Source of the DNA: Actinomycetota bacterium
GTDB lineage: Bacteria > Actinomycetota > Actinomycetes > S36-B12 > CAIYMF01
Assembly (NCBI GenBank): GCA_947455705.1
Contig: CANGPO010000016.1
Coordinates: 1 to 43,537 of the forward strand
Length of the DNA: 43,537 nt
Direction: 5' to 3'
The notes below the pieces were generated by a model. The model ran no database searches. It saw nothing but the letters and a program-made list of their open reading frames with translations, and had not been told where the DNA came from. Shown here piece by piece: positions 29,311-43,537 of the stretch. Within the stretch, counting starts at the first letter, position 1; every line of letters starts with the position of its first letter. A program made the position numbers and the translations under genes.

Positions 29311-29642
29311 GGTTCTCCTCGTGACTTCGTGTTGGAACGGTGGTTCCTGCGGCCCCTGTGGGCGCCATGCCCCGATCGTACGGGTGCTCAGCGGAGTCGC
29401 GCTATGGGAGTGGTGAAAAGACCTCTGCTCTCAACCATCGCGTGGTGAAGGGTTGCGGCGCGCGGCGGTGACACGTCGATCTTGCTCTATCGCCGGGCGG
29501 AGATCCGCCGCTGCCGTTCTGGGAGGAGCCTGCGGAGTTCTCTCGTCCCGTGTCGGCATGACTCGAAGCGCTCTCACTGCTTCGGGTCTAGCAACATCGA
29601 GATTTCACGCTTACGATGAATCGACGTGCACGAGGGGGGAAC
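29311..29642. other. Intergenic region between gabD and the RTX-repeat gene
   Basis: About 330 bases with divergent flanking genes and no credible ORF. Two short perfect inverted repeats are present: GGAAC-GGTG-GTTCC at 29334-29347, close to the gabD start, and GGCGG-AGAT-CCGCC at 29496-29509. TACGAT at 29612-29617 is a plausible -10 for the rightward gene. No RNA gene is seen. Confidence 0.5.
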
Positions 29643-31454
29643 GTGAGTCGAATGAAGATTGCTGCCGTGGCGTGTGCGCTGCTGGCGGCATCACTGGTAG
29701 GAATCGCACCGGCAGTTGCGGTGCAGTCTCGTGCTGCACAGCCGACCCCAGCGGACTGCACGATCTTTGTAACAAACGGAATCGCCCTCGGCACAAGCGG
29801 CGATGACGTCATCTGCGGTACGCCGGGTGACGACACCATCCTCGGCGGTGGTGGAAGTGACACGATTTTTGGCTTTGGTGGGAACGATTACATTGACGCT
29901 GGTGCCGGCAGCGACTGGGTTGACGGCGGATCGGGTTACGACCAGATCGTTCTCGGACCCGGTGACGATTACGCAAACGGTGGGGCAGACGCAGACCAGC
30001 TCTGGGGCGATGCCGGCCTCGACAAACTTGTTGGGGGCGCCGGCAACGATTCCCTTTCGGGTGGCGCGGGCGTCGACAACGTCAACGGTGGCGCGGGCGT
30101 CGACTATTGCCCGGCGGATAAGCAGGACACGTCCGTCTCGTGTTATTTCGATACGGCAAAGCCCAAGCTTGTGAGCGTTTCGGTGGCTACCCCGAACGTC
30201 GACACTTCGGCCGGTGCTAAGGAGCTCGCACTTCGCGTACATGTCACCGATGCTGGTACCGGTGTCCGTTCGATCAACTTGGTTTTTCAACGGCATCTGA
30301 CCAATGGATCTTGGGTCAGTGATGTGGGTTTTGGTGGTGATGCTGAACATGCTCCGTGCACCGCTACGAATCACGCCGCTTCACCCCAGCCCGGTGAAAC
30401 TACGACGTGCTTGGTCTCAGGGACCTGGAACAACGGCATCTATGAGATGCGCACCCTGCTGCGGCACTGGTCAGCCCATGGCACCTACATTCTTTCGGAG
30501 GCAAGGCTTTACGACGGTGCACGCAACGGCGGTTTTCTCGGATACGACACGTTGACTGCGCAACATTTAGCTGTGTCGTTTCATCAGGTGGGCACCGGTG
30601 ATGGGATACCGCCACTGATCCGTTCGGTGCAGGTCATCAGCCCCGCGACCTTCTCCACCGCCAACTCCGCGCAGCTGATTGGATTGCGTATGCATGTGAC
30701 TGACGCGGTATCGGGCGTATTAGGAATGTCCGTCGAGATGGCCCGCATGACGCACGTCGCAGGTGTCGATGAGTATCTCTGGCCACAGCCGGGTGCAGGC
30801 GGCCCAGCCGACGCACCGTGGTGCTCACGGCAGGCGCCCTCGACGCCGCAGGTATGTCGTGAAAGCGGCAATACCCACGATGGTTGGTACCAGGTGTGGA
30901 TTGAACTCCCTCGGTGGGCGCCCAAGGGCGTGTATGAGTTAACCGTGGTTGGGCTATCAGACCTGGCTGGCAACACGTACTACTACACCTATGGTGAGCT
31001 TACGGACCGACACCTCGTGGCGAAGGTCTCCCAAGTCTCGACGGGTGATTCGACTGCTCCCACAGTTGTCTCGATTTCCGTGAAGACCCCGGTTGTCCAT
31101 GCGGGTGCCGCTGATGTGCGAGTCGAGATTCGAGTGCATGCGCGCGATGCCGTATCTGGGGTCGCCGGACTATTCGTAAACTTTGCGCAACAGGGCGACT
31201 GGACACTCCAGTCGCTCGAGTTCTCCAACAGCAACGAACCGTGTGGGCAGTTCAATCAAGATGCGTGCCTTATCAGTGGGACTCCTCGAGATGGAACGTG
31301 GCAAATGGCCGCTTGGCTGCCCGCACACGCGGCCGCCGGGGTCTGGTCGCTTGTGCAGGTGACCGCCAATGACAATGCAGGTAACTCGCGGGCCCTGGGG
31401 CTTCCAGATGAATTTAAGGCTGCGCACCTTTCGGGATCCTTCACGAACGGCTAG
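29643..31454 (+). CDS. Secreted RTX-repeat protein with three Ig-like repeats
   Basis: About 603 residues from GTG 29643 (ATG 29652 is an alternative), with GAGGGGGGA upstream and a likely -10 at 29612. A Sec signal peptide (MKIAAVACALLAASLVGIAPAVA) leads to a short stretch with ICGTPGDDTILGGGGSDTIFG and further GGxGxD-type nonapeptides: a calcium-binding beta-roll of about six to eight repeats. Three repeats of about 148 residues follow, opening near 30163, 30608 and 31054. Each has a VSV..P opening, LRVHVTDA.SGV, a cysteine pair, and an ending like LSDLAGN. Likely an exported, calcium-stabilised surface or adhesion protein. It is the last native gene before the integration site. Confidence 0.85.
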   Translation: MSRMKIAAVACALLAASLVGIAPAVAVQSRAAQPTPADCTIFVTNGIALGTSGDDVICGTPGDDTILGGGGSDTIFGFGGNDYIDAGAGSDWVDGGSGYDQIVLGPGDDYANGGADADQLWGDAGLDKLVGGAGNDSLSGGAGVDNVNGGAGVDYCPADKQDTSVSCYFDTAKPKLVSVSVATPNVDTSAGAKELALRVHVTDAGTGVRSINLVFQRHLTNGSWVSDVGFGGDAEHAPCTATNHAASPQPGETTTCLVSGTWNNGIYEMRTLLRHWSAHGTYILSEARLYDGARNGGFLGYDTLTAQHLAVSFHQVGTGDGIPPLIRSVQVISPATFSTANSAQLIGLRMHVTDAVSGVLGMSVEMARMTHVAGVDEYLWPQPGAGGPADAPWCSRQAPSTPQVCRESGNTHDGWYQVWIELPRWAPKGVYELTVVGLSDLAGNTYYYTYGELTDRHLVAKVSQVSTGDSTAPTVVSISVKTPVVHAGAADVRVEIRVHARDAVSGVAGLFVNFAQQGDWTLQSLEFSNSNEPCGQFNQDACLISGTPRDGTWQMAAWLPAHAAAGVWSLVQVTANDNAGNSRALGLPDEFKAAHLSGSFTNG

Positions 31455-31494
31455 CGCGTCAGGCGGCAGTGCACTCTGGCCGTTGTTAGGCGGC

Positions 31495-31519
31495 AACCTA
31501 CTTGTCTTGCAAGCAGGTT
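31495..31519. terminator. Hairpin beside the tRNA-Phe fragment
   Basis: AACCT-A-CTTG and CAAG-C-AGGTT form a ten-position stem with one A/C mismatch around a TCTTG loop. It could end the RTX gene transcript rightward, or be the original terminator of the tRNA-Phe gene read leftward. There is no good T-run on either side. Confidence 0.35.
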
Positions 31520-31533
31520 GTGCCCTTGATGGG

Positions 31534-31575
31534 TGGCCAGGGACGGGGTCGAACCGTCGACCTTCCGATTTTCAG
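31534..31575 (-). repeat. 3' fragment of tRNA-Phe(GAA), probable attachment site
   Basis: Read on the minus strand this is the 3' part of a tRNA: anticodon loop CTGAAAA (anticodon GAA, phenylalanine), variable region, T-stem and loop with GGTTCGACCCC, acceptor strand CCTGGCC and discriminator A, followed by CCC. To its right the sequence no longer matches a tRNA: there is no pairing anticodon 5' arm, D-arm or acceptor 5' strand. A 3' tRNA fragment of this sort is what tyrosine-recombinase integration leaves at the far end of an island. Its direction places native chromosome to the left and the element to the right. Confidence 0.8.
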
Positions 31576-31909
31576 GCGAGTGAACCCCGTCCGAGTGGGG
31601 GCTTCGGTTGATGTCGTGGGGTTCTGACCTGCGATCTAGTCCGCAGGGTGCTTTCACGAGATGGCTGCGTGCAACTCGTGATGTGCCAAATCTGTGACAC
31701 GTCCGGGCACGTATGAGGGCCGGCGTGATACAACGTGCGTCTGCTTGCCCCTCAGCGCCGGAGCCTCGTGCTGGAGCCCGTCCCGGCATGAAGCAGCAAT
31801 TCCCACCCGGGCTCTTCGAGATCGCCGCGACGGTCGCTCCGACCTCGCCCCCGCCTACGACGGCGCCCCGGCCTCCCCGGTCTAGCTGGGATGAGAGCTG
31901 GGCAATTCT
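31576..31909. other. Left end of the island, no intact gene
   Basis: About 330 bases between the attachment site and the transposase remnant. Frames are open on both strands because of the high GC content, but none looks like a protein. An imperfect GAACCCC/GGGGGCTTC hairpin lies at about 31582-31605. Nothing else can be supported. Confidence 0.4.
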
Positions 31910-32921
31910 TCGATTGGTGGTCAGGCGTACTCGGTGATGGACGAGATCGGTGAGGTCCGCACCGGTGCGTTCCCGCGACCAGATGCCCACCTCGAGCGCG
32001 TCGAGGGCCATCTCGGTGCGCAGCGAGGTCGAGCACTGCCAGCCGACCACACGGCGTGAGAACACGTCGATGACGAACGCGGCATAGACCCAGCCGGCTA
32101 AGGTCCGGATGTCGGCGATGTCGGCGACCCAGAGCTCGTGGGGCGCGTGCGCGGTGAACTCGCGGCCGACGAGGTCGGGGGCGATGGTCCGGGCCGAGCC
32201 AGTGGACCGTGGGCCCGTCGCTCGGGTAATCCCGCGCAGCCTCTGGGTCTTCATGAGTCGCTCGACCGTGCATCTGGCCACCGGATGACTGAGCCGGTTC
32301 AGCTCGGCGTGGACCTTCCGAGCCGCGTAGACGCGTATCTGTCCGCGTGCACCACCGCGATCGCCACGGGCGTCTGTGTGTCGCTGAGCGAAGGGGCCGA
32401 AGGCGGCCGCTACCGGTGCGCGTAGTGAGTGCTCGGGGCGACCTGCAGAACCTCGAAGATCGGCTCGACCTCGAACCCGTCCTTCTGGGCGTCGATGTAG
32501 TCGACGACCAGCGCTGCGGGCGGTCGAGCTCCGGCGCCAAGAAGGGCGACGCGCTCGTGACGATCCCGTTGGCCCGGAGCAGTTCGCGGTTGTCCGCTGG
32601 AGCGCGGCGATCCGCTCCGCATCGGTCGTACTCACGCCGGCGCTGGCCCTCGTCGATCTCGGCCTACACGACCCAGCCGCGCAACGTCTCGGGATTGATC
32701 CCGAGCTGCTCTCCGATCCGGCCGACGCCCTGACCCAGCTCGCGGCCCGCGACCAGCCTCCGCGGCGTTTCGCGCCGGCGCCAACGCCGTCGAAATCTTC
32801 GAGCCCAGGCGGGCCCGGATCCGACTGCACCAGGCGAACGCCTACCGCGCGCTATCAAGCAGCCTCGCGCACGAGGATTAGGCCAGATCCTGCCAGACAG
32901 GCACCATCGCCCCAGGGTTCA
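31910..32921 (-). pseudogene. Decayed IS3-family transposase (OrfA and OrfB remnants)
   Basis: On the minus strand, pieces of both IS3 reading frames survive in different frames. OrfA: RIGEQLGINPETLRGWV near 32670-32730, then a broken coiled-coil stretch. OrfB: DGFEVEPIFEVLQVAPSTHYAHR near 32410-32480, then in another frame YAARKVHAELNRLSHPVARCTVERLMKTQRL and the integrase-core start HELWVADIADIRTL, FVIDVFSRRVVGW and DLTDLVHH near 31940-32160. The sequence departs from the family right after LVHH, before the second catalytic Asp and the Glu of the DDE triad. Several frameshifts plus the missing C-terminus make it nonfunctional. TGAACCCTGGGG at 32910-32921 may be one IS end. Confidence 0.8.
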
Positions 32922-33029: not shown

Positions 33030-33815
33030 TCAGTGCGTGCAGAGGGTGTCTGGTGTCGCGATGAAGCGGGAGCCTTCTGGGCTGACGACGATCGACATGT
33101 ATGGCTTTCCGTCTCCCGTGGTGGCGATCCAGGTCTGAGTCGTGGCGCCGGGGTAGCCCATGGCGGCGCGAGCCGCAGTGACGTCTGGACGGTCGACGAA
33201 GAGGGCCTGCGCAGCCGTTGCGGGTGTTGCTCCTGATCCTGGGGGGCCTCCCCACGAGAGGCTGCCGCCGTCTCCGCATCCGAGGTCGGCCAGTGTGTCC
33301 GACCGCCAGACGTTGCCGGGGTCGGTGACGGTGACGGTATGGGGTGTGCCAGGACTGGCGTTGGGGAGCTGGCACGCCAACGTGAGGGTCCCGGGTGGGG
33401 CCAGCAGCGTCCACGTACCCGAAGTTGCAGGTAGCGGTTCCCCTCCTCCGCCGCCCGTTGACCACCGGTAACCCAGGTAAGAACCCTTCGGCAGGGTGCT
33501 GGTCACGGACAGCACCACACCGGCGGAGGTGGCGGCGACGGCATCGCTGGACACGCTGATCCCCTGGGGGCCGCACGACACGGCCAGGCTCGCGGGCGCG
33601 ACGCCCTCGACAGGGTTCACCGTTAGGTTTGGACGCGCGACGAACGCAACCGAGGCGACCAGAACGACGACGGCGGTGACCGAGCCGACGGTGGCCGAGG
33701 TCCGGACACGACGACGCCGGCGACCGCCCCGAAGGACGGCGTCCGTGTCGATGCGGTCGACCCCCGGGTGGGCGACGGCAGAGGCGAACAGGCTCTTGAC
33801 CTCGGTCTCGTTCAC
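33030..33815 (-). CDS. Single-pass membrane protein, putative anti-sigma partner
   Basis: 261 residues from GTG 33813-33815, which overlaps the stop of the sigma-factor fragment as GTGA. A cytoplasmic N-terminus with an RGGRRRRRVRTSA basic patch precedes one membrane helix (TVGSVTAVVVLVASVAFVA, about residues 41-60). The rest is a glycine/proline/threonine-rich extracytoplasmic domain of about 200 residues with four cysteines. Position and topology fit the companion gene of SigE-family ECF sigma factors in actinobacteria. No classical zinc anti-sigma motif is present, so anti-sigma function is inference. If the sigma partner is dead, this gene is an orphan. Confidence 0.65.
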   Translation of the reverse strand: MNETEVKSLFASAVAHPGVDRIDTDAVLRGGRRRRRVRTSATVGSVTAVVVLVASVAFVARPNLTVNPVEGVAPASLAVSCGPQGISVSSDAVAATSAGVVLSVTSTLPKGSYLGYRWSTGGGGGEPLPATSGTWTLLAPPGTLTLACQLPNASPGTPHTVTVTDPGNVWRSDTLADLGCGDGGSLSWGGPPGSGATPATAAQALFVDRPDVTAARAAMGYPGATTQTWIATTGDGKPYMSIVVSPEGSRFIATPDTLCTH

Positions 33816-34246
33816 GGTGCCTCCTTGGGTGCGGTGAGGGGGTCTGGTTCGAGGGCTGCGCGCAGCGCGTCGAGCCCGCGGCTGGCCTGGGAGCGGACGT
33901 TGCTGGCGCTCGTCCCGAGGATCTGGGCGGTCTGCTCGATCGAGAGGTCGTCCCAGTAGCGGAGAACCAGGACGGCGCGCTGCCCGTTGGGCACCTGGCG
34001 CATCGCCGTCATCAGCCGATCGCGGTCGCCGTCCACGGTGTTCGTCTGCTCGACGCCCTCACGGTCCGGCAGCTCGGCGAGGGGGACCTCGCGGCGGGAT
34101 GGGCGCCGCCTGTGGTCGAGGTACAGGTTGACGAGGATCTTGCGGGCGTAGGGCCCCGGGTCGCCCGAGGCGGTGACCCGCCCCCAGACGCCGAGCAGCC
34201 GGGTGAGCGCGTCCTGGACCAGGTCGTCGGCCAGGATCGCACCGGC
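33812..34246 (-). pseudogene. SigE-family ECF sigma factor lacking its N-terminus
   Basis: One minus-strand frame runs from just after a TAG at 34247-34249 down to a TGA at 33812. It reads AGAILADDLVQDALTRLLGVW (end of region 2), PYARKILVNLYLDHRRRPSRRE (region 2.4 and linker), and QVPNGQRAVLVLRYWDDLSIEQTAQILGTSASNVRSQASRGLDALR (region 4, promoter -35 recognition). The N-terminal 25 or so residues, with the start codon and region 2.1, are missing; the first possible start is GTG 34036, which leaves region 4 only. The break is exactly at the stop of the neighbouring gene, so a recombination event beheaded it. A short region-4-only product might still be made. Confidence 0.8.
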
Positions 34247-34666
34247 CTAGTGCTCCGAACCCAAGCGAGCGAGCCATGCGTCAACGAACGATGGCTCGAT
34301 GGCATCCTCGTTCAGATGGTGAAAAGTCAGGATCGACAATCCGTCCGTCAACGTGAAGCCCGACATCGGGCCAGGACTTTCGTCGGGCAGCCGGGTGTGA
34401 CTCGATGCCGTTGCAATAACGGCCAATTGCGTTGCCAGGATCGACGGATCGCCCGCCTCATCACACTCATAGTTGTCCAACAGCAGTGAAACGGCCCCAC
34501 CGTCGCGAACGATGGCGAGGACGAGAGGGCAATCTGGGCCCAAATCGTGCGACACCGTGACCGTACCCACGTCGCTTTGGAAGATCCGACCGGAGGAAGG
34601 ACCGAAAGCAGACTGGAATGCCCGACGTACTGCTTCCACAGCCCGTCCGCGACTCTCAGGTCTCAC
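34247..34666 (-). CDS. Candidate immunity protein of the RHS toxin
   Basis: About 139 residues from GTG 34664-34666, which overlaps the RHS stop codon as GTGA, a strong sign of translational coupling. Longer in-frame extension to 34795 would overlap the toxin tip and is less likely. It is acidic and soluble with no signal peptide: [39 protein letters not shown], and a C-terminal half ending [13 protein letters not shown] do not recognise the family. A small acidic cytoplasmic protein directly behind and coupled to an RHS toxin gene is the classic place for the cognate immunity protein; this rests on position only. Confidence 0.65.
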
Positions 34667-37600
34667 CACAGTTGGGGACCCTTCAAGAAGTCGCGGTGTC
34701 CCTTCGGTCCGGCGACCCAGCCCTTGGGACCGCTCAAGCGGAAGGTCGCGTGCCCCGAGGCCTTTGTTCCGTGGTGCGACCATCCCAGATTCCACTTTGT
34801 TCCCGGCCGGTTGAGCCTGCCAGCGCGTCCCATGCTTCCCCAGCGACTGTTGCCGAACAGGCGGCTGTTAACGCCGAAAGCCTTGCTTCGGTATGCCCAT
34901 GCACCGACTCGCTCTATGACGCTGGCGGCCCGGCTTGCATAGCTGACCGACCGAACGGCACGAGCTGTCCAGATCGCGGCGCGTGCTGCCATTGACGCAA
35001 TGCCAACACCCGGGATGAACATGGTTGCCGTAAATGCGATGTCAACCCAGTTGTCCTTAACGAAATTGCAGATGTCACCCCAGCCGAAGTTGCCGTCCAG
35101 GTCGAACATGTTGATCGGATCCAGGGGGTACACGTAGTCGTTCGGGTTACCCCCTTCGACCGGGTCGACCGACAGGAATCTTCCCCATTCGGGGAGGAAC
35201 GGCCGTGCTCCCATCTCGATAATGGGTAGCGAGCTGACGGCGTTCTCGAGGCCCTTCTGGTGTTGGCCGACCCAGCCGTAGTCCATGCTCCCGGCGGAGT
35301 TGTCGGTCGAGGAGGTGATAGGTGCGCCGGTGGCGCGATCGATGGCGACGCCGAAGGGGTCGTAGGCGAGAAGCCCGGTGGTGACCGTGCCGGTCTGGTC
35401 CGTTGTGGTGATGATGTCACCGTGGATGTTGGGGTAGGACCAGACTCCCGACGCAGCGCCGGTCTGTCCGGGTCGACTCGTGAACAGGGCGCCGCCGGGC
35501 AGTGAGATCTGGATTTCGACGATCGCCTTGGCTGCGGTCAGCGTGTAGTCGGGGGCGTCGCCGTCGCCACTGAAGCCATAGCGCGCGTCCACGGATCCGT
35601 TGACGCTGCGGGTAGTGATGCGGTCGGAGGCGTCACGCGTGTATGCGACCGTGGTGCCGATGGGGTTGGTCTGGCTAGTGCCGGTGTGCCGGCCAGCACG
35701 ATCCCACGTGAGGTTGGCGGTGATGCCGCCTCGGGCGATGACGCTGGTGTTGCCGTCGGCGTCGTAGAGGATCTGCGACGTTGCGCCGACGCCGCCTACG
35801 GAGGTGAGACGGTCGCTGTTGTCGTAGCAATAGCTCGTGGTCTGGCCGCTCTGCCCAGTCGGCGTGACGGTGAGACTGGTGCGATTGCTGTTCTTGCCCG
35901 CCGCGTTGAGCGCACCGCAGCCGCCGACGGCGGCATAGCCGTAGTCCTGGACTCGGCCGGGTATCACGGCCTGGATCAGTCGGCCGACACCGTCGTAGGA
36001 GTAGCCGTAGTTGGTCGTCTGGTTGCCTGCGCCGCCGGTGAGCGTGGTGCTGTCGGATTGGATGGCTCCGGACTGGGACCGGGTGACGGTATCGGTCAGG
36101 ATACGGCTGCCCGGAAGGGCGTAGCCGAGGCCGGTGATGCGGCCCGCGGGGTCACGAGTGACGGTGGACAGGCTCGACCCGTTGCCGCCGTTCCCGGTGC
36201 CATTGGGGTAGCTGACTGTGGACAGTTCGCCGGTGGTCGCGTTGTAGGCCGGGACGGCAATGGTGAGGGTCCCGAGCTTCTGAGAGGAAAGTCGGCCGGT
36301 GGACGCGTCGTAGACGTAGTTCTGCACGATCGTGTTGCCCGGGTTGTCGACCTGAGTGGAACTGGTCTGGGCGACGTGCCCGGCCTGGTCGTAAGTCGTA
36401 GACGTCACCACCCCGTTGACGTCTGTGTAGGAGCGGGGTCGACCAAGCAGGTCGACCTTGGTCGTGATGCTGCCCGCTGGGTCGGTCACGGTGGTGGTGA
36501 GCGGGTAGGTCGTGCCCGCGGCTCCCGCGGTGTAGGCGGTATCGACGGCGCGCTCGACGGTGGTGCCGTCGGCGAGGCGGGTCTCGGTGCGGGTGACGCG
36601 TCCGCGAGCGTCGTAGGCGGTGCACGTTCGGACTGGTCCGCCGGCGGCGTCGAGGGTGGCGACGGGGCGGCCAAGGATGTCGTAGATGGTCTCGCTGGTC
36701 AGCGCCGCGCCCGAGGACGGCGTTGGGCCGGTGCTCGAACGCGGCAGGCCGGCTTGGATGACGGCGGGGGAGCCGCTCAAGCACGGGTTGGCGCGGGCAT
36801 CAGCAATGCCCCAGTGGGTGTAGGTCCATTGGTTGCCGGCGGGCAGGGTTCGGCTGGTGCGGCGCAGGTATCCCGTCCCGGGGGCTTCGTAGCCGGTGCT
36901 GGTGGTGAGATTCAGCCCGGTGGGGTCGATGCTGGCGCTGGTGGGCATGCCGGTCTCGGGGGTGGCGCCGTAGCCGGTGGCGTTGCGACGGGTCCCGAGT
37001 CCGCCCGCGTCGTCGGTGGTGTTCGAGGTGGCCAGCCCGTACGCGGGGGTGACGCTCGAAGTCGGGACGACGGCCTTGGTCCCCGTCGGGGGGGTCCAGG
37101 ACAACTTGAGTTGTGCGGTGGCGCTGGCGACGTCGTGGTAGTCGATGCGGATCGGGGTCTTGCCGGTCGCGCCGGCTGCGACGGTGTAGGTGCCGGTGGT
37201 GGTCTGGATGCCCGCGGTCCAGTTGTCGATGACGACCTTGGTGCTGGTGCCGCTGCCGAGGATCAGTCGGGCACCGTCGGCCGCGACGGTCTCGAAGGTG
37301 TAGGTCCCGGCCGTGGTTAGGTCGATCCAGCCGGTGAGGCGCATCGACCAGGCGTTCGTGTTCACGCCGGTCGCGGGGGATGTGGCGGCCCAGTTCTTGT
37401 TCAGGCTGGTGAGGGTGCCGTGGATGGCGGACGCGCCGGCGAGGTCGGTGTTGTTCCAGTAGGTCGCCGAAAGCCCAGTGATGCCCTCGTCGTAGGCGCT
37501 GCTCGAGTGCGGAGGCAGCGGGTTGGTGCAAGTTCCGTTGGGCCGCTTGAAAGTCGGGCTAGTCGAGACCAGGTCGAAGCAGGACGACGGAGCCGGCCCG

Positions 37601-40600
37601 TAAACGTCGTTGGTGCGTCCATAGGCGTCGCGCAACGTTGTGGTCGTGCGCCCGGCTCCTTCGGTGGAGTACTCGAGTGAGTCGTCCGGCGCCCAGACAG
37701 TGGTGGTGGTGATGCCGGCGGCATCGGTACTTGTCAGCGGGCGCATCGCAGCGTCGTAGGTGACGAAGGTGTCGTGATTGCTGACACCGGCTACATCGAC
37801 CGTGGTCTGCCCAGCCCCGTAGGTGTAGGTGCGGGCGGGCCGGTTCTCTCCAGGTAGTGGTGCCGGTGCGGTGATGACGGTCGCCCGCGGTGAGGCGGCG
37901 GTGTCGTACCCGACGAGCGTGCGGGTGGTGTCGTTGTCGCGGGTGGCGGGGTCGTTGGCGACCCAGTCCGCCGCGAGCGGATCGCGGACGGCGGAGACGA
38001 GCCCGTTGGTGCCGTAGGAGATGTCGGTGAGCTCAGCACCCGGGTCCTGGATGCGAACCAGCCTGCCGGACGCGTACCAGAGCTGGGTCTGAGTGCCGTC
38101 GGGGTAATTCAGTGCGCACAGCATCCCCGCGGGAGCGGCGCTGGCGCCCGGCGGCGGGCCGGTCGGGCAGATGTCGCCTGCACGGTTGTACACCAGGCCG
38201 ATGGCGCGGGTGGGGGCCAGGCGGTCGGCGATGGAGGCGAGCCGTGCCGGGGATCCGCTGTAGGTGTAAACGGCGGCGGCAGGGTTGCGGTCATCCAGCG
38301 CGCTGATCATCGAGGCGACGGTGCCGTCGGCGTTGAAGGCGTAGTCGGTGCCGTCCTCGTCATGGAGGGTGACCTTGCCTGTGGTGTCCAGGGCGAGGGT
38401 GCCGTGCTCTCCCGGCGGCGCGGTGAATGCGTCGCCTCCGGTGCCGGCGGTCGGGGACTCGACCCTGGTCCAGGTGTGGGTGGCTCCGGTGCTGTCGGTG
38501 AGCACGACCGCGGTCGAGGTGACCAGCGAGTGGACGTAGGCCAAGTCACCGTCGAGGTCGGCGCTGACGGTCCAGCCCTCGGGGAGGGCGTTGGGGACCT
38601 CGGGGGTGAGCCAGGACGCTGGGGCCACGCAGGTCGCGTAGCTGGTGGAGTCGGGGGTGCACTCGCCAACCGCTCCGGCCGCGTCGGTGCGGGCGATCCA
38701 CAGCTCCAGGTTGGAGTTGTATGTCTCGTCGAAGTAGTCCACCCGGATCGGCACAGCGGTGCCCGCGGACAGTGCGAGGCCGGAGCCCCAGGTCACGGTG
38801 GGGACGCTGCCAGCGACCCACTGATCGACCACGAGGGCGCCGTTGACTGTCACCCTCAGGCCATCGTCGCGGACATACCCGAACTTGTAGGTCCCGGTCG
38901 TCGGGACAGTCAGATAGCCGTCCCAGCGCATCAGGACGTAGTCGACCGGCAACGCTGCCGGGTAGGCGGACTTGTCCGCCCAGTCGAAGTCGATCATCGA
39001 GTCGACGCGCTGCAGGATGGGCTGACCGTCGTCGAAGAGCTGGTTCTGGTTGGTGTCCTTGTAGTACTTGCCGGTCAGGCCGTGGACTTGCTTGCCTTGT
39101 GAGTTGTAGGTGAACGACACACCCAGCTCTCCGCCGACCGTGGCGACCGTGGGTGAGGACGCTGCGATGGTTGCGTTGCCATTGGCGAGGTTGACCGACA
39201 CGGGGCCCAGAGCGTCGACCGGCGCGGGACCGGCAGAGCCGATGCGCAGGTCGACGCGATAGCCGCGCACGGTGCTGGCCTGCACCACACCTGTGGAAGT
39301 CTTCGCGAACGCGATCCAGGTGTAGGGCACTCCGTCGCGCAACGTGCCCTCAGGCACCATCCAACTCGGGCTGGTCAGCCAACCCGAGTTGATGACCGCC
39401 CCGGTCGCGGCGTCAGAGCCGCTCGCGATCCGGAACCAGTAGCTGGTGGCCCCGGAGTAGGAGGCCGACAACGTCGGTGTTGTGGTGGCCACGACTGCTT
39501 TGTCCGCCGGCGCCGTCGCGGTCACCAGCGACGGCGCGGTGAAGGAGTTTGTCCAGGTCGAGTTCACCACCGAACTGGTGGCGTTCTGCGTGTCGTAGGA
39601 GTCCTTGACCGACACTTTCCACTTGTAGACGACACCGCCGGTCAGCCACGTCGGCATCGCGACGCTTGGGGTGGTGATCCAACCAGAGTTCCACACCGTC
39701 GAGGTGCCTGCCGCGTTCAGCACCGTGAAGTTGTAGGACATCGAGTCCGTGTCGGTTGCGGACACGCTCAGCGTCGGGTTCACCGACGCCGCCGTTGACC
39801 CGTTGGCCGGGGTCCCCGCCCCGATCACCGGCTTGACGTTGTAGGTGATCGACATCGACACGGTGAAGCGCTTGTAGGAGTACACGCCGTTGGACTCATA
39901 ACCCTTGAACAGCAGCAACTTCCCCGCGGACAGGCTCTCGACCCAGTCACCGATCTTGTTGCTCAGACCCGTGCCGTTGAATACGTTGTCAGTATTGATC
40001 GTGGCCGTCGCGAGGGACCCGCCGGTCTGCCCGCTCCACGACCAGCCCGTCGACTCCACGATGTAGTCGGTGTAACTGCTTGCCGTGCCACCATCGAAGG
40101 TCGCCGCGACCGTCGCACCCAGGACTTGCTTGCCATTGACGCTCTCGTACGGGAAGTCCACGACGCTCCGCCAGTAGGTGTTGCCACTGGCCACACTGTT
40201 CCCGATCCGCACGAACGAATCCGTGTTGATCAGCGTCCCGTCCAGGTACGACTTCACGGCGGTCGGCGAGTAGGTCGCCACCGTCGGGTCGACCAGGACC
40301 GGATAGACGCGTGCCGGGTCCAGCAGCCAAGACGACGCGACACCCACCGTGATGACCCAGTTGGACCCGCTCGCGGACGCGGCCAAGGTCCCGTACGTCC
40401 ACACAGGCTCACGCACTCCAGGGATCCCGGAGGAATCGCTGACCGCGACTCGCGGGATCACGAACACGATCGAAGCTGACGAGTCGACGAAGTCAAGGCC
40501 GCCATCGACGTTCGCCACCGGCGTCAGGCCGGGCGCCGCAACGTTGAACTTCCACGACGACGTCTTGTTCGCCGGCCGAGACTTCAGGACCAGCGTCTCC

Positions 40601-41265
40601 TTCACACTTCCATTGGTCGTCTCATAAGTCAGATCCGCACCCGGCAGTGCATCCGAAAAGCGCAGGACGGAACCGTCCAACGAGCCAGTTGACTTCGCGG
40701 AGCCCACAGCACCCATGCTGAACGTTCGGTCACCTGTAGTGAGCACCACCGTGGACGACGGCGAGGCCGCCGTCGCGAACTTCGGATTCAGCGGGTGTAG
40801 ACCCGTCTCGAAACCTGTCTTCCCGGCGCGCAGACCCCGGTCCACCGCCTTCCAAGAACCCCCCGAATCACGGACGTTCAGCGGCTCTGTCGAGAAGTCC
40901 AACTTCCGGATGCCTTGCGCATCCTCCAGAACCGTTGTGTTCTCAGACCTCGACACGACCGCCGCCGTAGCGGGATCGAACTGCTCGGCTGTCGCGCTCG
41001 ACGGCGCTGCCGCCGTCCCGGCCACCACACCAGGCCCGTTGGAAAAGTCACCGAATGACCCCGCCCGTGGAACCGCCTCCGGCGCCGGAGCGTGGATGGG
41101 GAGGGCAGCCACGTCGACGGACACGGCAGCTGCGCTCGCGGCCGGTCCCTCTGCGGCCACCGACACCGATATCAGCGCGGCGGTTGTTAGGGCCACTACG
41201 AAGATTCGACCAGGGAACCGCGTCCAACGCACCATGACCGACGAACGAGAAGAACGAACTCGCAT
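34663..41265 (-). CDS. Giant secreted PA14/RHS (YD-repeat) polymorphic toxin
   Basis: 2200 residues. A long signal peptide (basic [20 protein letters not shown], then hydrophobic [17 protein letters not shown]) indicates Sec export. Following parts: a beta-rich region to about residue 350; a DNRLRE-like module near 350-480 ([28 protein letters not shown]); fibronectin-like repeats; a PA14 domain near 760-880 ([28 protein letters not shown]); RHS/YD repeats; a second PA14 near 1270-1410 ([30 protein letters not shown]); more YD repeats forming the cage ([23 protein letters not shown]); and the RHS end AYDPFG to [10 protein letters not shown] to [10 protein letters not shown] near 2057. The last 140 residues carry a hydrophobic helix ([16 protein letters not shown]) and a tip [21 protein letters not shown] that I cannot assign. 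Confidence 0.92.
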
Positions 41266-41690: not shown

Positions 41691-43389
41691 GTGTTGTCCA
41701 GTGCGAAGATCGGTCGGTCCTCCTGGCGGTACTACCAACGCACCGTCGCCGGTGGTGCGTGCGAGTACTACGCCGAGCACGGTGACGCCCCCGGCCGCTG
41801 GCACGGCTGCGGCCTTGCCCAGCTCGGCCTCACGGCAGGTGCCGAGGTGCAGGAGCGTGAGCTCGAAGCGCTGTTCGGTCGCGCCCTGTCACCCACGACA
41901 GGTGTTGTGTTGGGGTCGCCGTGGCGCGCGGACGCGGTGACGGGGTATGACCTGACGTTCTCGGCACCGAAGTCGGTGAGCACCCTCTGGGCGTTGGGCG
42001 ACGCCCGGACGATTACGGCGATCGATGCCGCACATGCCGCGGCGGTCAACGCCGCGCTCGGCTACCTCGAGACCCATGCGTCGCTGTCGCGACGCGGCCG
42101 CGACGGTGTCGAGCAGATCGGATCGGCTGGGTTCGCGGCGGCGCTCTTTGACCATCGGACTTCGCGGACCGGGGATCCGCAGCTGCACACCCACGCGCTG
42201 GTGGTGAACAAGGTCCGCTGCGTGGATGGTGCGTGGCGGACGTTGGACGGGCACGAGATCTTCCACCACAAGAAGTCCGCGGGTGTCGTCTATCAAACCG
42301 CGCTGCGCGCGGAGTTGTCGGCGCGGTTGCCGGTGTCGTTCGGGGCGGTGTCCGAGCACGGTCAGGCCGAGATCGCCGGAGTCCCCGAAGAACTGATGAC
42401 CGCGTGGTCGTCGCGGACATCCGCAGTGCTCGCGGATGCGGTCCCGACGATCGCCGACGCAGAGGACGCGCTAGGCCGCCCGGTGTCCGCCACGGAGCGG
42501 GCCAGGATCATCAAGACGGCGGTGCTCTCCACAAGGCCGGCGAAGGACGTACCCGTCCCGGAGGGGGAACGTCGCGGGCGCTGGCTGGAACAGGCGGCGG
42601 CGTTGGGGTTCACGGCGGACGTGGTGACGGACGCCGTCCGGACCGCCGACGCCCAGGGGAGAAGCGTGCCGGTGCCGTCCGGGTGGTCGGGGACGGTGCT
42701 GAGGGACGCGGTGACCGAGGTCGGGCGGCGTAAGGCGATCTGGTCGCGCGCGGACCTGGCCATCGCGGTCGCGGCGAGGGTCCCGACGACGGGTGACCCC
42801 CGGCTGAGGTCGGCGGCTGATGCGGTGATTCGGGTGGAAGAGATCACCGACATCGCGCTCACCCAGGTCGGGCTCTCCGGCGCGGTGCCGCTGGGTGTGG
42901 ACCCATCGGGGGTGACCGCGCGGGCGTCGGATGCCCGCTACGCCTCCTGTGAGCTGGTGGACACCGAGGCCCGGATCCTGGAGCGGGCCGTAGTAGGTGG
43001 GTTCCGGCCCCCGGAGCGGTTGCGCCCGGACTTCGTGGCGTTGCTGCTGTCCGGGGAGGCGGGGCTATCCGAGGAGCAGGGGCGGGCCGTGGTCCGACTG
43101 GTCGCCACTCGGGACCTGGTCACCGTGATGACGGCACCGGCGGGGGCGGGCAAGACCACCACCCTGGCCGCGGCCACGGTGGTGTGGGGCAATGACTGGA
43201 AGGACGTGACCGCGCTCGCGCCGTCCGCGCGTGCCGCCGCGGAGCTCGCGAAGGCGACCGGGGCGCCGGGTCAGACGGTGGCCCGGTGGCTGCTCCGGGA
43301 GGCGACCAATCCGACGCCGGTGAAGGTGCCGTCCGATCCGGGGTACATGCGCAGGGAGGTGATCGTGGTCGATGAGGCCTCGATGCTCA
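41691..43389 (+). pseudogene. MobF (TrwC/TraI-type) relaxase, truncated
   Basis: About 566 residues of relaxase from GTG 41691. The N-terminal tyrosines lie in WRYYQRTVAGGACEYY. LTFSAPKSVSTLWALGD and FDHRTSRTGDPQLHTHALVVN (near residues 150-170) are the HUH metal motif of MobF relaxases, which nick oriT and pilot the strand during conjugation. A helicase domain follows with Walker A APAGAGKTTT near residue 483 and Walker B VIVVDEASML near residue 559. Full-length members normally continue for several hundred residues. Here homology stops at about 43389 and the frame continues to 43469 only as an out-of-frame reading of integrase sequence. The nicking domain is intact, the helicase is not. Confidence 0.85.
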
Positions 43390-43537
43390 GACCACGCCTG
43401 GGCCGGTGCGTTCGCCCTGAGCTTGTCCGGCCTGCGACGCGGGGAGGTCCTCGGCACACGCTGGTCTGACATCACTCTGGACGGCGACTTGCCCCACATC
43501 GTCGTGCGCCGCTCGCGGGTCCAGCTTGGCCATGACG
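43390..43537 (+). CDS. Tyrosine recombinase fragment (continues past edge)
   Basis: In the frame +1 to the relaxase, the sequence from about 43390 to the window end reads DHAWAGAFALSLSGLRRGEV, then LGTRWSDITLDGDLPHIVVRRSRV. GLRRGEVLG.RWSDI is the first catalytic-arginine box of phage-type integrases (tyrosine recombinases). The N-terminal arm and core-binding domains that should precede it are absent, replaced by relaxase sequence. The remaining catalytic boxes (HxxR and the tyrosine) would lie past the edge. It is probably a remnant, but the part outside the window is not visible. Confidence 0.8.

Follow-up and report, generated by a model that had tools for sequence, protein, structure and literature searches.

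A probable exchangeable RHS toxin-immunity cassette with an uncatalogued C-terminal tip in an actinobacterium

The window analysed here, a stretch of 43,537 nucleotides of actinobacterial DNA, carries on its reverse strand the gene for a 2200-residue RHS protein, followed directly by a short overlapping frame and then by the remainder of a sigma factor gene. The protein opens with a hydrophobic segment that, read from the sequence only, resembles an export signal; it contains two PA14-type regions, and both the RHS repeat family PF05593 and the RHS-associated core family TIGR03696 score above their cut-offs in it. The features are as follows.

34663-41265, reverse strand: RHS polymorphic toxin gene, 2200 aa (open frame, RHS repeats and RHS-associated core).
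38716-39087, reverse strand: PA14 domain, residues 727-850 (Pfam PF07691, protein E 4.5e-36, two stretches).
37099-37500, reverse strand: second PA14-like region, residues 1256-1389 (NCBIfam NF041776 and two Pfam PA14/GLEYA stretches).
35092-35328, reverse strand: RHS-associated core domain, residues 1980-2058 (TIGR03696).
34894-35091, reverse strand: linker with a hydrophobic stretch, not conserved together with the tip module (alignment, hydropathy).
34666-34905, reverse strand: conserved tip module, the candidate toxin domain (alignment, phmmer and shuffle Z against the relative L115).
34687-34701, reverse strand: GHRDF, containing the H.D motif common to the window and both relatives (alignment).
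34247-34669, reverse strand: candidate immunity gene, 139-140 aa, with a GTG start (34669 or 34666) overlapping the RHS TGA.
33812-34246, reverse strand: SigE-type sigma factor fragment (TIGR02983 positions 32-159), the right edge of the putative cassette.

The TIGR03696 core model stops at residue 2058, the G of a DLDG motif, and the 142 residues that follow (34666-35091, reverse strand, with the stop codon at 34663-34665) constitute the tip. The first-pass annotation, made from the letters alone, had described an unassigned C-terminal tip beyond the RHS core, and this tip is real: both protein strings quoted there are found in the frame at 34663-41265, with only the upper bound given for the tip, 35095, lying about one codon beyond 35091. 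Since the frame runs through 2200 codons and another RHS protein ends in a significant match to the last ~78 residues, the tip is more than a chance extension of the core. The core itself ends in the variant motifs DPVEG and DLDG, in which both aspartates are kept. Two DPxGL motifs (PxxxxDPxGL) form the Rhs autocleavage site (PMC8636562), and by analogy we propose the variant DP..DLDG motif as the site at which the tip would be released. Its second motif differs from DPxGL in reading DLDG, and related RHS proteins of the same family have DL.G there.

To find relatives of the tip, RHS 3' ends were gathered by position, about 150-180 of them from related genomes; they came from 30 loci found in a TIGR03696 search of 247 genomes of the class, from 119 ends taken by coordinate, and from the window's own family and order. 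Two of these ends, from other RHS proteins in the same bacterial class, carry the same tip. The intact relative (L115, on whole contig L239) ends in ...LYGSRSVGADSPWFGNDSLGTPGVSGSLNQRGAAYRIGWSVNAEAPGGARPVFSLRTPWILHLDFFYGPVFP and matches the window tip with a phmmer E of 4.4e-6 among 6588 ORFs and a Smith-Waterman Z of 14.3, a score reached by 0 of 5000 shuffles. The second relative (L093, from genome G020 of the same order) is interrupted: either its frame is broken or the sequence contains an error. It ends in ...LYSSRYMGHQSQLFGRKYTSGIQGSMNQGRLRTGWGWKG and resumes in another frame as ...GTNVFRTSWSSPGNRKSSNHIDWMWW. When the two pieces are scored separately, the first matches L115 with a Z of 10.1 and the second does no better than shuffles, so that the second piece is placed by its position and motif. 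Against the window alone L093 matches weakly, 81 of 5000 shuffles being as good. The first-pass annotation had proposed searching for RHS proteins that share only this tip, and L115 and L093, which have other linkers, are such proteins. The family may exceed the three members known from this sampling of RHS ends.

Alignment of the three tips gives 12 invariant columns and confines conservation to the last ~78-80 residues, which share Y.S...G..S..FG, G..G.(L/M)N, GW, F(R/S) and H.D, with GP following H.D in the window and L115. The composition of this end is striking: the last 78 residues hold 14 K or R, a single D or E, 4 H, 6 W and 14 G, and the tip as a whole has a pI of 12.0. Two features that had earlier been given prominence fare poorly in the alignment. 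Of the clustered histidines, one in four is conserved, that of GHRD, which has its counterpart in the H.D of both relatives; WSHH in the window is WSVN and WGWK in the relatives, and the histidine of SGHATF likewise lacks conservation. The hydrophobic segment, once read as part of the tip, falls outside the conserved module. Its most hydrophobic 19-residue stretch has a Kyte-Doolittle mean of 1.66, and the sequence of L115 differs there, with a maximum of 1.06. An RHS paralogue in the same genome has a similar FIPGV stretch beside an unrelated tip; the stretch therefore belongs to linkers in general, and on these comparisons the candidate toxin module and the hydrophobic linker are separate things.

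The first-pass annotation could not place the tip in a known toxin family, and profile searches bear this out: at E <= 10 it has no match in Pfam, NCBIfam, PHROGs or PADLOC. The same was true of its last 65 residues and of the L239 tip in Pfam and NCBIfam, Ntox families included, and comparison with PDB sequences gave chance-level matches only. The downstream ORFs gave nothing of note in the profile libraries, and searching the genomes with the downstream ORF returned weak matches only. When the tip was used directly as a phmmer query, 166 genomes of the order and 396 of the phylum yielded weak, wrong-frame, GC-rich noise; these scans are not very sensitive, as the order search included G020 yet missed its broken tip. 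Pattern scans, for which the motif was guessed from the look of similar tips, and related-locus searches of the collections found no RHS tip, and searches of viral, plasmid and phage sequences (tblastn at chance level for plasmids and phages) found no relative of it. A characterised family may nevertheless match the tip in structure. AlphaFold run without an alignment gave a pLDDT of 42 for the tip, modelled as helices followed by strands, and 51 for the downstream ORF, both too low to use.

The frame that overlaps the end of the RHS gene looks coding by its codon-position GC values of 0.65/0.50/0.65, and only 1.3% of shuffles keep a frame of this length and composition open. The predicted product is acidic, with a pI of 4.7 versus 12.0 for the tip. 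L239 repeats the arrangement, with the same GTG/TGA overlap, an ORF of ~140 aa, and a pI of 9.7 for the tip and 6.3 for the ORF. An overlapping, co-oriented, acidic ORF lies where an immunity gene would be expected; the downstream ORFs of the three loci are not clearly related to one another. At its N-terminus the window ORF does match the L115 ORF, in the C-terminal part of the latter (2 of 5000 shuffles), but the match is out of register and we draw nothing from it. As the three ORFs show no clear relationship, it is position, overlap and charge that make the 139-aa ORF the best candidate for the immunity gene.

Base composition and the downstream junction both point to cassette exchange. 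GC3 falls from 0.86 in the core (mean 0.859) to 0.70 in the tip and 0.65 in the candidate immunity ORF, the value for the tip lying below that of every core window of 142 codons (minimum 0.711). Composition changes of this sort from Rhs shell to tip have been described (PMC8636562). Different tips follow a similar core in the same genome, at RHS ends on contigs C57 and C97, and the same tip follows different RHS proteins in L115 and L093. The right edge lies exactly at the end of the candidate immunity ORF, where the SigE-type sigma gene lacks its start and ~30 N-terminal residues; its homologues in the same genus are intact, the best being 79% identical. Unless the contig is misassembled at this point, the cassette seems to have replaced the 5' end of the sigma gene.

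We consider, at a probability of roughly 80%, that this locus is an exchangeable cassette of RHS toxin and immunity gene whose toxin domain is uncatalogued and possibly a nuclease; the tip is probably a toxin of a familiar kind, directed against other bacteria. Architecture and conservation are what the sequences show; that the tip is toxic, and that immunity, cleavage, entry into other cells and a nuclease activity come into play, we infer from established RHS biology (PMC3482391, PMC8636562) and from our own reasoning, along the following lines. The exported protein would display an RHS shell with PA14 modules at the cell surface, the tip would be freed at the variant DPVEG..DLDG, and the hydrophobic linker would aid its entry into a neighbouring bacterium. 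There, the small and very basic tip would attack nucleic acid, RNA being likelier than DNA, with H.D as its likeliest catalytic contribution, while the acidic 139-aa protein would shield the producer and its kin. The suggestion in the first-pass annotation that histidines and lysines could form a nuclease-like site is still conjectural, though made somewhat likelier by the very basic tip and its acidic partner. We put forward tentatively, as possible, that the last ~80 residues stand for a so far undescribed family of very small toxin domains in actinobacterial RHS proteins, marked by GW and a terminal H.D, with a fold of its own and fast-diverging immunity partners; this family would at present comprise three members, one of them broken.

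Other accounts of the tip can be set beside this one. That it is instead a BECR-fold RNase toxin is rather unlikely: typical BECR domains are longer than the tip module, no BECR family in Pfam or NCBIfam gives a profile match, and a model with a pLDDT of 42 is unusable. In its favour, BECR RNases are among the largest groups of RHS toxins (PMC3482391). The BECR fold has a helical segment followed by a 4-stranded meander, with a His or Ser/Thr in the active site. A small, basic C-terminal domain with one conserved histidine, an acidic partner and possibly a helix-then-strand order, as in the low-confidence model, recalls the BECR-fold and Ntox toxins (PMC3482391), from which the window tip differs in having neither sequence nor profile match to them. 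The letters SHH in the window tip recall another nuclease with a conserved SHH signature, Tox-SHH (HNH/EndoVII), an identity that we set aside as there is no Pfam match and SHH is absent in both relatives.

That the tip has decayed, leaving a remnant cassette without toxicity at a rearranged locus, is improbable. The removed start of the sigma gene at the 3' junction, the broken frame of L093, and a downstream ORF that resembles the L115 partner in a shifted register only would all fit such a history, but the 2200-codon frame is uninterrupted, the conserved positions of the family are kept, and the overlapping ORF is intact with coding-like codon positions. More improbable still, in our view, is an RHS toxin like Tse5, pore-forming or ionophoric, in which the toxic part would be the hydrophobic stretch and the basic end an accessory. 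The stretch is present and pore-forming Rhs toxins exist (PMC10684867); however, conservation with L115 covers the last ~78 residues and not this stretch, and a similar one accompanies the unrelated tip of the same-genome paralogue.

An exchangeable toxin-immunity cassette fits what is known of RHS polymorphic systems (Zhang et al. 2012, PMC3482391; Rhs1 structure, PMC8636562), which likewise comprise an exported RHS protein whose core ends in a DP-type motif, a variable tip with its own base composition and an immunity-like gene directly downstream; the window differs from known systems in that its tip belongs to no catalogued toxin family. WapA of Bacillus subtilis, a wall-associated RHS protein with a tRNase tip (PMC5566331), offers a parallel in a Gram-positive-type cell with a C-terminal toxin directed against neighbours. 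The window protein differs from it in having PA14 modules, and the likeness is drawn by analogy. The tip family is real and uncatalogued, within a known kind of system and ordinary in kind. If confirmed, it would add one more toxin-immunity family to the many polymorphic ones known and provide a compact domain that should lend itself readily to expression and structure solution; our overall view of polymorphic toxins would stay as it is. The locus would also be a documented case of cassette exchange in actinobacteria with small genomes, here next to a relaxase gene and to the detriment of a sigma factor gene.

Several further observations concern RHS ends and the surroundings of these loci. 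The RHS ends on C57 (L002) and C97 (L003), one of which lies at a contig end, have cores that end similarly, followed by unrelated tips. The contig of the intact relative holds, downstream of it, an orphan segment of RHS core plus a different tip (L239:1385-2179) and, further on, an ORF at L239:7028-8074 that reads by eye as a tyrosine recombinase. In a genome of the same genus, core and tip of the RHS protein L083 (G002:C63) are separated by a segment (CNSFEPDTPVLLADG...FVVGAGITRFTVHNSS) that, again by eye, looks HINT-like. Within the window, a gene for a TrwC-type relaxase with a helicase-like AAA domain (41691-43469) lies close to the contig end and diverges from the RHS gene; given this gene, a mobile element may carry the RHS cassette. 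The opposite flank of the RHS locus holds a transposase with rve and HTH_21 domains (31451-32830) and, at 29616-31454, a protein of 612 aa that has RTX calcium-binding repeats together with DUF7743/DUF7035.
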